Notes under the pieces: model-generated
Told to the model about the DNA's origin: nothing
Database searches by the model: none
Seen by the model: the letters and a program-made list of their open reading frames with translations, nothing else
Shown here: positions 28,946 through 52,177 of the stretch, in pieces
How positions within the stretch are numbered: the stretch's first letter is position 1
Layout of the letters: each line of letters begins with the position of its first letter
Program-made: the position numbers and the translations under genes
NCBI GenBank assembly: GCA_003667865.1
Contig: CP033051.1
Span: 3,784,001 to 3,848,000, forward strand
Length of the DNA: 64,000 bases
DNA from: Rossellomorea marisflavi
GTDB taxonomy: Bacteria > Bacillota > Bacilli > Bacillales > Bacillaceae_B
Reading direction: 5' to 3'

Positions 28946-29713
28946 CTATCGCATAAAGCCACCTTCTGAGTGGAGTATTTGACCGGTAATCCACTGAGCC
29001 TCAGAGGAGACAAGAAACCCAATTAAATTGGCCGCATCACTTGGAACTCCAATTCTCCCTTGTGGAAATAAAGGGAGCAGTTGCTGTTCCATTTCTTTGT
29101 TAATCCAGCCTGTATCAGTAGGACCAGGGTTCACTGCATTAATCGTTATCCCTTTTTTAGCAGCTACCGACGCTAATGTTTTGGTCAAAGTTTCTATAGA
29201 GCTTTTCGTTATAGCATAAGCAATTTCATCTGGCATTGCCCCAAGTGATTGACCTGAGGTTATATTTACAATTCTTCCGCCTGTACTACCATGAAAGTGT
29301 GTGATGAAGTTTGTTGTCAATAAGCTTGTTGCTCGAACATTTACTTTATAATGGCGATCAAGTTCTTCCTCAGATAATGTTTCAACAGATGTCGATGTTG
29401 AATAGGTTGCATTATTAATTAGAACAGAAGGACTTCCAAGCTTCTCGTTTACACAATCAATTAGTTTAGTATGTGCACCGGCTTCCATAAAGTCAATTTC
29501 TATCCATTCACATCTGACTCCCTTATCCTCAATAAGCTTTTTTAACTGATTTGGGTCATCATCACTTTTGAACCATGGCATACATTTGTCATACGTTCTC
29601 CAGCTAGTAAAAAATATGTCATACCCTTTCTCAGCAAGTAAAAGCGATGCCGCTGCCCCAATTCCATCTAAACGACTTGCTCCGGTAACCATTGCAATTG
29701 AATTGTTCTCCAA
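28946..29713 (-). CDS. SDR family oxidoreductase
   Basis: 255 residues, classical short-chain dehydrogenase/reductase. Cofactor motif is TGASRLDGIGAA, slightly longer than the common TGxxxGxG, then NNAT (residues near 107), catalytic Ser in NITSGQS and the YxxxK motif in AYAITKSS, followed by NPGPTDTGW. Close to 3-oxoacyl-ACP reductase-like enzymes; substrate unknown. TTG start at 29713, seven bases after GGGGG. Lies 15 bases downstream of the ABC-F gene stop, so it can be cotranscribed with it. Confidence 0.9.
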   Translation of the reverse strand: MENNSIAMVTGASRLDGIGAAASLLLAEKGYDIFFTSWRTYDKCMPWFKSDDDPNQLKKLIEDKGVRCEWIEIDFMEAGAHTKLIDCVNEKLGSPSVLINNATYSTSTSVETLSEEELDRHYKVNVRATSLLTTNFITHFHGSTGGRIVNITSGQSLGAMPDEIAYAITKSSIETLTKTLASVAAKKGITINAVNPGPTDTGWINKEMEQQLLPLFPQGRIGVPSDAANLIGFLVSSEAQWITGQILHSEGGFMR

Positions 29714-29728: not shown

Positions 29729-31321
29729 CTAAACTTTTCTTAATTCGTTGAGTTTCTTTAGTACAATATCATATTCTCGTTCTAAATCTTCTTTATTCAT
29801 GTTTGAATCTTGAATACTCAATCTAGAAATAATTTCTGTTAACTTTGTTTCTAACATCATTTTTTCTTCTTCACTATGATTACGTTGCTTCGGACGAGCT
29901 TTTGAAGACTCAAATTCAGTTAATGAACCGTCAAACATACGGATTGTTTCTTCCTCTATGATCCAAAGCTGATTGGCTACACGATCAACAAATTCTCGAT
30001 CATGTGAGACCACCAATACTGTACCAGGATAATCGACTAATAGCCCCTCAAGTGCTTGTAACGTATCTAAATCAACATGGTTTGTTGGTTCATCCAGAAC
30101 AAGAAGATTATAATCTCCGACAAGGAGCTTTGCTATTGAAATTTTCACTTGCTCTCCACCACTCAAGACATTGATAGACTTTGCCATGTCTTCTTCAAAA
30201 AAACGGAGCCTTGCCAAAATGATTCGAATTACATGCTGTGGTAGCGTGCTTCCTTCCATTACATACTCTAGTACCGTTTTATGAAGGGGTAGTTTCTTAA
30301 GTTGTTGATCGAAATACCCGACCTTAGCATTTTTTGTCATATCCACTCCTTCGTGTTCTACCTGTAATAGCTGCTGAATAAGGGTCGTTTTTCCACATCC
30401 ATTTCGACCAAGACAAGCTGTCTTACTTCCAGTTTTTAGCTTTAAGCTGTCGACATTATAAAGTCTACGCCCATTAATCTCTTTGCTCAAATCCTTTACT
30501 GAGATAAAGTTTTTTCGATACACGGGTGATTGAAGTATATAATCCATTTTCACATCGTCCCATTCAAAGGGCTTTTCAACTTTATCCATGCGCTCAATTC
30601 TCTCTTTTAGGACAGTCGAAACCCTTTCAATTTTTCCACGCTTACCTGCTGCTTTCCCTTTATATAACTGCCACTCAGAATTTCCAAATCTTGATGGAGG
30701 TGTATCCATATTTTGTGATTGTTGTACTTTTTTCTGATAGCGCTCTGTTAACCTCTTCTTTTCTTTTGTATACGCAATATATTTTGCATCGTGCTCTTGT
30801 CTTTGACGCTCTTTTTCTCTTACATAATCATCATAATTCCCCTGATACTCTGTGAATTCCCCCTCATCTAGCTCCCAAATTTTTGTACAAACCTTGTTTA
30901 ATAGGGCACGGTCATGTGAAGCGATTACGACTGCACCAATCCAATGCAGAATTCGTGTTTCAAGCTCTTCGATTCGTTTCCAATCTAAATTGTTTGAGGG
31001 TTCATCCAGAAAGAGAATGTCGGATTTTAATGCAAAGCATTTATTCAATCTTTTAATCGTTTCCTCACCACCACTAAGATAAGAAGTATTCTCAAAATGG
31101 TTTATTTGAATTTGCTCAAAATAATTTTTTGTTCCAAACCACTCTACCTGTGGGACCACACTTAATTTCCCTAGTAAATATTTTAGTAGCAGCGATTTCC
31201 CTTGACCATTCTTACCAATAAGACCGACTCTTTCCCCTTCATAAACTGAAATCTCATCCATCTTAAAAAACGATCGATCCGCAATCGTTACTTCTACATT
31301 TTTTGCTTTCATCAATAACAT
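29729..31321 (-). CDS. ABC-F ribosome protection protein (VmlR-like)
   Basis: 530 residues, two ABC ATPase domains and no membrane part. First domain: Walker A IGKNGQGKS, signature LSGGEE, Walker B ILFLDEPSNNLD. Second: LGRNGCGKTT, LSGGEQ, LLVLDEPTNHVDLD. The linker between them is long and charged (about residues 180-265), as in antibiotic-resistance ABC-F proteins that reach into the peptidyl transferase centre (VmlR, Vga, Msr type). Resistance spectrum (lincosamide, streptogramin A, pleuromutilin) cannot be read from sequence. Starts at ATG 31321 behind GGGGAGG; that ribosome site is part of the terminator hairpin in the leader. C-terminal extension is basic and helical. Confidence 0.9.
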   Translation of the reverse strand: MLLMKAKNVEVTIADRSFFKMDEISVYEGERVGLIGKNGQGKSLLLKYLLGKLSVVPQVEWFGTKNYFEQIQINHFENTSYLSGGEETIKRLNKCFALKSDILFLDEPSNNLDWKRIEELETRILHWIGAVVIASHDRALLNKVCTKIWELDEGEFTEYQGNYDDYVREKERQRQEHDAKYIAYTKEKKRLTERYQKKVQQSQNMDTPPSRFGNSEWQLYKGKAAGKRGKIERVSTVLKERIERMDKVEKPFEWDDVKMDYILQSPVYRKNFISVKDLSKEINGRRLYNVDSLKLKTGSKTACLGRNGCGKTTLIQQLLQVEHEGVDMTKNAKVGYFDQQLKKLPLHKTVLEYVMEGSTLPQHVIRIILARLRFFEEDMAKSINVLSGGEQVKISIAKLLVGDYNLLVLDEPTNHVDLDTLQALEGLLVDYPGTVLVVSHDREFVDRVANQLWIIEEETIRMFDGSLTEFESSKARPKQRNHSEEEKMMLETKLTEIISRLSIQDSNMNKEDLEREYDIVLKKLNELRKV

Positions 31322-31328
31322 AAAAAAA

Positions 31329-31353
31329 CCTCCCCGAAATTGTTTCGGAGAGG
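31329..31353 (-). terminator. Leader terminator overlapping the ABC-F ribosome site
   Basis: Minus-strand hairpin CCTCTCCGAAA / TTTCGGGGAGG (11 pairs, one G-U, loop CAA) followed directly by seven T and the start codon. The 3' arm contains the Shine-Dalgarno sequence, so the hairpin can block both transcription and translation. Confidence 0.88.
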
Positions 31354-31624
31354 TGGCGTCCTATATTTGATTGACCATAAATTGCATTATAAATAAGAGC
31401 ATGATTAAGAGGAAGAGTTCTTCAAGTTTACATACAACTGAAACTCTTATCAAAATGCCTCCAATAACAAATCATACAACTTTATCATTGTAACCAGAAG
31501 CTAACATGCCTGTTAGTAAAGGTAACTTTTGAGCAATATTTTGGCCAAACGGGCACACTTCACCTATCCGAAACGAGTACGTAATGCAACATTCTTATTA
31601 AACTCGTGTCTTTGTTGGGATAGG
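31342..31624 (-). promoter_or_regulatory. Predicted antiterminator switch in the ABC-F leader
   Basis: Segment 2 at 31561-31574 (GTTTCGGATAGGTG on the minus strand) can pair 13 of 14 bases with the 5' arm of the terminator at 31342-31355, giving an antiterminator. Segment 1 at 31618-31624 (CCTATCC) can instead pair with GGATAGG of segment 2 (31563-31569), supported by an inner ACGAG/CTCGT stem. This makes four mutually exclusive segments, the classical attenuation layout. Confidence 0.75.
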
Positions 31625-31644
31625 CTAATTACTTCATCGCTCAA
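31564..31644 (-). CDS. Putative leader peptide, 26 aa
   Basis: TTG start at 31644 with AAAGGA eight bases upstream. Product (M)SDEVISLSQQRHEFN..., ending in RTRFG; its stop codon TAG lies within segment 2 of the leader switch. A ribosome paused early in this frame would cover segment 1, free segment 2 and favour the antiterminator; this is inference from layout. Other short frames in the leader (GTG at 31556, TTG at 31453) are less well placed. Confidence 0.5.
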   Translation of the reverse strand: MSDEVISLSQQRHEFNKNVALRTRFG

Positions 31645-31676
31645 AAATTCATTCCTTTCAGTCACAATTTGACTTT

Positions 31677-31705
31677 ATTATAGAACAACTGGAAGAATCA
31701 TGCAA
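31677..31705 (-). promoter_or_regulatory. Promoter of the ABC-F gene leader
   Basis: Minus strand TTGCAT (31700-31705), 17 bases, TATAAT (31677-31682). Predicts a leader RNA of about 350 bases before the start codon. Confidence 0.8.
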
Positions 31706-51644: not shown

Positions 51645-51744
51645 GTTATAAACGTTGATATACTAATAGACAACTAGATTTTAAGGGCCTACCAATGTAT
51701 CCTCGTTATACCTTCCCAATTCCCGAAGAAGATAATACGCTATA

Positions 51745-51912
51745 AATAAGGCAGGTCTCCTGACTTGTGCTTCTTCCTACTCTAAGACCTTCCCATCTCT
51801 AGATAGACAGTGGATACTCCTTAGTTCGTCAGCACTTACAGTTGCGGGGACAGCTCTGGATTTACACCAGATTCCCTATTATGTCTTTAGTAGACACCCT
51901 ATTTATCGGCTA
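51745..51912 (-). promoter_or_regulatory. Cobalamin riboswitch
   Basis: Minus-strand aptamer with the conserved blocks GGGAATCTGGTGTAAATCC, GCTGTCCCCGCAACTGTAAG (51836-51855), CCACTG, and the B12 box AAGTCAGGAGACCTGCC near 51750-51768. Controls thioesterase-nrdA-nrdB. High adenosylcobalamin is expected to switch the operon off. The remaining sequence between 51913 and 52177 is AT-rich and holds no clear signals beyond the lipoprotein promoter region. Confidence 0.95.
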
Positions 51913-52177
51913 ATTCAATATGTAGTTATTTACTGGTTACAAAACACTAAATATTGTGTTCTATAGAAAATAATAAAGCACCTATACGACAAATTCAACC
52001 ATTATTTTTATCTTTCGTCTAGTTATTTTTTCACTACATGATTCCTCCGATAACTATAAACCTTGGTGGCATTAGCTTTTCATTCAATACGAAGAAAAAT
52101 TTTTTTTCTAATTAAACATTTTAGCGGACGAGCTTGAATATATTTTTCTATGAATTTTAATATTAAGGAGAGTGTCT

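Follow-up and report, generated by a model that had tools for sequence, protein, structure and literature searches.

A two-codon upstream open reading frame as the probable sensor of an ABC-F attenuator in Rossellomorea marisflavi, and its relatives before other resistance genes in Bacilli

The window analysed here is a whole stretch of 64,000 nucleotides of Rossellomorea marisflavi DNA. On its minus strand, a leader of ~350 nt lies between a promoter-like sequence pair and a gene for an ABC-F protein, which is followed closely by a gene for an SDR oxidoreductase. The features of this locus are listed below in window coordinates.

28946–29713, minus strand: SDR oxidoreductase, 15 nt 3′ of the ABC-F stop (NF009389, 356 bits, cut-off 286)
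29729–31321, minus strand: ABC-F ribosome-protection gene, 530 aa, Vga/ARE1-like (NCBIfam profiles, structure relatives)
31322–31354, minus strand: intrinsic terminator made of segments 3 and 4, with T7 (terminator scan, swap test)
31342–31355, minus strand: segment 3 (CACCTCTCCGAAAC), partner of segment 2 in the antiterminator or of segment 4 in the terminator (shuffles)
31391–31396, minus strand: TTATTT, matching the NusG-pause motif reported for vmlR (TTNTTT); a possible pause site read from sequence only, perhaps a chance occurrence in A+T-rich DNA
31524–31538, minus strand: 3′ strand of helix P1 (TATTGCTCAAAAGTT) (MFE fold, swap test)
31561–31578, minus strand: segment 2 (ACTCGTTTCGGATAGGTG), partner of segment 1 or of segment 3 (fold, swaps, covariation, shuffles, masking)
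31602–31624, minus strand: segment 1 (CCTATCC ... ACGAGT), 5′ strand of the anti-antiterminator (swap test, covariation)
31629–31637, minus strand: uORF ATG AAG TAA (Met-Lys-stop), the proposed sensor (conserved place in 102 of 103 distinct leaders)
31635–31649, minus strand: 5′ strand of helix P1 (AATTTTTGAGCGATG), which includes the uORF start codon (MFE fold, swap test)
31653–31659, minus strand: GAAAGGA, Shine-Dalgarno-like, 15 nt ahead of the uORF ATG (aligned with conserved GAAAGG / GGAAGGGTGA in relatives)
31677–31705, minus strand: promoter-like pair TTGCAT-17-TATAAT (sequence; TTGCAA-17-TATAAT in congeners L005 and L009)

The ABC-F protein passes the NCBIfam profile for ribosome-protection ABC-F proteins (NF000355) with 441.6 bits against a cut-off of 380. 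Its score of 512.4 bits against the Vga family (NF000170) is under the cut-off of 725, yet this is its closest family, and its nearest solved structures are 7nhl (a lincosamide-streptogramin A resistance protein) and 7nhn (Lmo0919). The SDR gene is probably co-transcribed with the ABC-F gene. It also trails the ABC-F gene in congeners L002, L004, and L005, and in L152 the RNA element is immediately followed by an SDR gene whose product is 54% identical. These arrangements suggest that the SDR is part of the drug response, perhaps as a ketone-reducing, drug-inactivating enzyme. Elsewhere in the window, a cobalamin riboswitch (Rfam RF00174, 133 bits) is found at 51733–51916 on the minus strand.

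An earlier note on this DNA, made from the letters alone, had described a four-segment attenuator in the leader, and most of that description holds. The promoter-like pair consists of TTGCAT (31705–31700) and TATAAT (31682–31677), with a 17-nt spacer, and the leader has the ~350 bases claimed. The MFE fold of the leader (−90.9 kcal/mol) beats 100 of 100 shuffles (z −3.4). A terminator scan finds the hairpin at 31354–31328 and its seven T at 31328–31322, with the ABC-F ATG directly 3′ of the T tract, and the ribosome site of the main gene (GGGGAGG, 31335–31329) sits within the 3′ arm, hidden as had been proposed. Segments 1 and 2 pair through an outer stretch (CCTATCC 31624–31618 with GGATAGG 31569–31563) and an inner stem (ACGAGT 31607–31602 with ACTCGT 31578–31573). 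The alternative partner of segment 2 is segment 3, with 13 of 14 bases complementary (31574–31561 with 31355–31342), a match that none of 5000 dinucleotide shuffles reaches; the duplex, at −20.0 kcal/mol, is stronger than all 2000 shuffles. Two parts of the earlier description fall short, namely the 26-codon leader peptide, which is discussed below, and the outer helix P1, which hides the uORF start and had been missed. Just after segment 2 (31568–31552, minus strand), GATAGG-N3/4-GTnTG is strongly conserved in the window and all aligned relatives, with a downstream TTTTT in most of the relatives; the motif fits the G(−10) Y(−1) G(+1) signature of RNA polymerase pausing and lies at a place where vmlR has NusG-independent pauses.

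The check proposed earlier, covariance of the stems in related leaders, supports these pairings. On a MAFFT alignment, RNAalifold recovered the five core pairs of the segment 1/2 helix and nothing more, because P1 and the loops could not be aligned, and we therefore used swap tests, in which each segment is matched both to the partner in its own leader and to those of other leaders (n = 101), and a leader is scored when its own pairing is stronger than the median swapped one. This was the case in 97 of 101 leaders for segments 1/2 (P2), 82 of 101 for segments 2/3, 88 of 101 for P1, and 99 of 101 for segments 3/4 (the terminator), counts that are not independent events, as the leaders are related to each other. 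When 98 elements are aligned, pairing in the core 1/2 helix stands at 96.4%, with two-sided changes in three of the five pairs, and the covariation score of the helix is reached by none of 500 column shuffles and is lost when the partner is slid along. The window leader thus combines mutually exclusive anti-antiterminator, antiterminator, and terminator structures with co-variation.

Directly 5′ of the anti-antiterminator strand, the window leader has a very short ORF with its own Shine-Dalgarno sequence. Among 103 distinct leaders, 102 have an ATG, one or two further codons, and a stop between the Shine-Dalgarno sequence and segment 1, the lone exception (L024) having seven codons. The encoded peptides vary (MK, MKY, MDN, MIN, MWN, MKN, MKF, and others) while the place and the stop are kept. 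For the first 29 leaders, the protein was the sole basis of choice; the remaining ones are matches to two models (R1 and R2) trained on leaders with a short uORF, so that part of the recurrence of the uORF among these matches is selection. The gap of 15 nt between the Shine-Dalgarno sequence and the ATG is longer than usual, and is similar in the vmlR ortholog L039, where AAGAAGGG lies 14 nt before the uORF ATG. The ABC-F gene is present in 9 of the 36 genus members examined, and all nine (the window and eight congeners) have the uORF MK*. Beyond the genus, this dipeptide occurs in L021, L030, L123, L124, and L159, and tripeptides dominate elsewhere. Because a stop at codon 4 persists behind the earlier stop in L123 (ATG AAG TAG TAA) and L124 (ATG AAG TAA TAA), we suggest that the dipeptide uORFs were derived from tripeptides in several lineages, L021, L030, and L159 also among them. 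The published vmlR, vmlR2, and cplR leaders have tripeptide uORFs and the window a dipeptide, a difference of detail and not of mechanism.

The leader is also akin to attenuators that have been studied by experiment. A search with Rfam, at gathering and at relaxed thresholds, gave no family for the window leader. Our second model (R2), a covariance model built from 98 elements, recognises the B. tequilensis leader of a vmlR ortholog (E 2e-12, uORF MIN), whose protein matches the VmlR structure 6ha8, as well as the Listeria lmo0919/vga(G) leader (E 1e-9, uORF MKF) and, more weakly, a staphylococcal vga(A) leader (E 3e-4, uORF MIN), so that a single model covers the window, vmlR-ortholog, and lmo0919 leaders. 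A protein-alignment search of genome contigs used patterns of too little specificity and returned, for the most part, distant ABC-F genes, but it supplied the vmlR ortholog L039 as an anchor; against 80 loci of mostly distant ABC-F genes, R2 gave two matches, both in Bacillaceae. The start codon of the B. subtilis vmlR uORF has been toeprinted, and mutations of its Shine-Dalgarno sequence or start codon abolish induction by lincomycin (PMC9226507). The uORF start codon is likewise required in the cplR leader (PMC10201436). By homology, we infer that these experimental results carry over to the window leader.

Taking these lines together, we consider it very likely that the leader is a ribosome-mediated transcription attenuator (and probably a translation attenuator as well) of the VmlR/Lmo0919 kind, sensing through the two-codon uORF ATG-AAG-TAA. 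The main competitor is the reading of the earlier note, in which a 26-residue peptide begun at the TTG at 31644 stalls drug-bound ribosomes inside the peptide, in the style of erm and msr leaders, and thereby covers segment 1. The frame exists (31644–31564) and its TTG is well spaced from a Shine-Dalgarno sequence, 8 nt after GAAAGGA; in addition, an ATG stands in its place in L159, and TTG is kept in six of the seven other congeners surveyed. However, it is crossed by the shorter conserved ORF in another frame, and its start is not conserved, the same place being occupied by TAG in L003, L144, and L147, by TAA in L126, L130, and L150, and by GAG in L010. In congeners, single-base insertions or deletions past the uORF put the frame out of register, so that the peptides are alike in the first few residues only, and across relatives the frame ends anywhere from before segment 2 to past it. 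The peptide has no family match, and the conservation of TTTTTGAGCA is accounted for by the pairing of P1. We looked for a conserved leader peptide of about eight or more residues, of the erm/msr type, and found none in this leader; the 26-codon frame, not being conserved, was rejected as the sensor, and stalling within it seems to us improbable.

Still less probable is a ligand-binding riboswitch, whose conserved 5′ domain would bind a drug or metabolite directly with no need of a ribosome. The 5′ domain does look aptamer-like, as its sequence is kept beyond the paired bases (GATAGGATTAGTCTG..CATTTTT) and is found before unrelated genes, but such a reading leaves aside the start codon, one or two codons, and stop that keep a fixed place while the codons vary. 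Moreover, mutations of the uORF start and Shine-Dalgarno sequence abolish induction in the homologous vmlR leader (PMC9226507), and no Rfam family is reached at gathering score. The last reading, to which we give almost no weight, is that of an ordinary terminator 5′ of a gene with incidental pairings and no regulation; intergenic terminators are common, but pairings beyond chance, co-variation, a conserved uORF, and a spread over 70 of the 135 genera of the order all speak against it.

For attenuation through the two-codon uORF, we propose the following course of events. P1 (31649–31635 with 31538–31524) and segments 1/2 would form a vmlR-like SL-1 that encloses the uORF start. When no drug is present, the two-codon uORF would be translated and the ribosome released at once, so that segments 1 and 2, with P1, could close into the anti-antiterminator, segment 3 would remain available to segment 4, and transcription by RNA polymerase would end at the ABC-F start codon; in any read-through message, the ABC-F ribosome site would be masked by the same hairpin. 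A drug such as a lincosamide, pleuromutilin, or streptogramin A would halt a ribosome on the uORF start codon or immediately past it. The parked ribosome would hold P1 open and clash with segment 1, segment 2 would then pair with segment 3, and with the terminator blocked the ABC-F gene and the downstream SDR gene would be expressed. A ribosome held on a leader ORF, with segment 2 thereby released and the terminator blocked, had been suggested before; this part fits the comparative evidence and what is known of vmlR, cplR, and lmo0919, whereas the sensing ORF had been misassigned. For the R. marisflavi leader, we infer that the uORF is translated, that drugs induce the switch and which classes they belong to, and that the SDR gene is co-transcribed. 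Predicted induction is confined to drugs that arrest ribosomes at initiation, namely lincosamides, pleuromutilins, and streptogramin A, and erythromycin would not be expected to induce.

Folding under a simulated ribosome is consistent with this scheme. Counted from the A of the uORF ATG, segment 1 begins with CCTATCC at +14 to +20, at the edge of an initiating ribosome, and a ribosome reading into segment 1 is not needed, since one at or just after the uORF start covers the beginning of the segment. With a footprint mask that keeps the bases from 20 nt upstream to 16 nt downstream of the uORF start-codon A unpaired, and with the window leader folded as it would be before segment 4 is made, the expected 1/2 pairs fall from 14.4 to 1.1 and the expected 2/3 pairs rise from 0.1 to 12.7. 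Gains of 2/3 pairs under the mask were also found in the 12 relatives tested, and were stronger in some. For the full-length window leader, the terminator is still favoured at equilibrium under the mask, and the decision would therefore be kinetic, or co-transcriptional.

Related elements are widespread. The first model (R1) has a match in 200 of 397 genomes of the order, and R2 has one in 79 of 398 genomes of the class. Among the 80 order matches that were fetched, 68 lie before an ABC-F gene, 9 before an MFS transporter, 1 before an SDR gene, and 2 (L164 and L206, probably remnants of gene loss) before no recognisable gene. A further 78 fetched matches comprise 50 before ABC-F genes, 11 before the same MFS family, 1 before another SDR gene, and 16 before other frames. 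Of these 50, one comes from the window's own genome, where the model matches weakly a second time (G000:C1:3190831-3190937, L327; 35 bits, E 0.013) ahead of another ABC-F gene; the uORF there lacks a short in-frame stop. The MFS family behind the element (L151, L154, L181, L187, L190, L193, L202, L210, L217, L266, L268, L271, L276, L279, L284, L289, L302, L314, L316, and L325) shows 62–72% identity where measured and is only distantly Mef-like.

Several known resistance families also stand directly behind the element (L265, L269, L280, L285, L292, L296, L313, L322, L257, and L326): Vat streptogramin A acetyltransferases (NF000311, 338 and 351 bits, cut-off 300), the lincosamide nucleotidyltransferase Lnu(G) (622 bits, cut-off 525), the rRNA methylase Cfr (TIGR04432, 603 bits, cut-off 550), and proteins like the streptogramin B lyase Vgb (at best 396 bits, under the cut-off of 600). 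An LmrB-like MFS protein (339 bits, under the cut-off of 800) is also among the other frames. Vgb-like and Vat genes are in tandem in L296 and L322, and the order Cfr gene, RNA element, ABC-F gene occurs at G723:C1:444699-445921, G485:C21:2627-3848, and G565:C4:3991887-3993218. The leaders before these other frames share the short uORF, and pairing of segments 2 and 3 is seen where the terminator is correctly picked. Conversely, the element is upstream of 5 of the 29 Vat genes over the cut-off, and of the 24 Cfr genes 1 has it clearly (E 2e-5) and 2 weakly, so that only a minority of Vat and Cfr genes carry it. The gene families listed act on peptidyl-transferase-centre drugs or their partners, which supports the proposed class of inducers. 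A non-exhaustive search of the open literature gave no report of such attenuators before Vat, Vgb, Lnu, or Cfr genes, nor of one attenuator family serving many unrelated resistance genes.

These findings make it likely, though with less assurance than for the window leader itself, that a single family of attenuators with two- or three-codon uORFs serves as a plug-in sensor of peptidyl-transferase-centre drugs before ABC-F, Vat, Vgb-like, Lnu(G), Cfr, MFS, and SDR genes in Bacilli, and can be used to find resistance enzymes. One attenuator family shared by many unrelated resistance genes is to us the part of greatest interest. The window leader corrects which ORF matters and narrows the likely inducers, while the single RNA model ties together the vmlR and lmo0919 attenuators and flags unrelated resistance genes for the same drug site, so that whether one ribosome-reading module controls a whole resistance class becomes directly testable. 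Here it is the RNA switch, rather than protein sequence, that points to candidate resistance enzymes, such as the SDR family behind the window's ABC-F gene. In addition, the shortest uORFs set a bound on how much translation such a sensor needs, and those of two codons suggest that initiation or the first peptide bond alone is sensed.

The closest comparison is with B. subtilis vmlR (PMC9226507), which, like the window leader, has a short uORF in the bulge of an anti-antiterminator hairpin, a Shine-Dalgarno sequence 5′ of that hairpin, an antiterminator, an intrinsic terminator, and an ABC-F target. The two differ in that vmlR has the tripeptide MIN, hides its Shine-Dalgarno sequence in a separate hairpin (SL-4) rather than in the terminator's own 3′ arm, and encodes an ARE2 protein and not a Vga-like one. 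The L. monocytogenes lmo0919/vga(G) leader (rli53) shares with the window a short uORF (MKF, again a tripeptide), a terminator just before the start codon, and a Vga-like ABC-F protein. For C. difficile cplR (uORF MR[I/M]; PMC10201436), likened here to the window by its published description, the terminator likewise extends as far as the main start codon, with the main Shine-Dalgarno sequence masked in the stem; the target confers resistance to pleuromutilins, lincosamides, and streptogramin A, and belongs to a different clade. Attenuation controlled by ribosome stalling is also known for erm, msrD, and hflXr, but there it depends on macrolides and on motifs in the nascent peptide of a longer ORF, whereas the window has no conserved long peptide. 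Most likely, then, the R. marisflavi leader joins the known VmlR/Lmo0919 type of attenuator, with a dipeptide instead of a tripeptide uORF.
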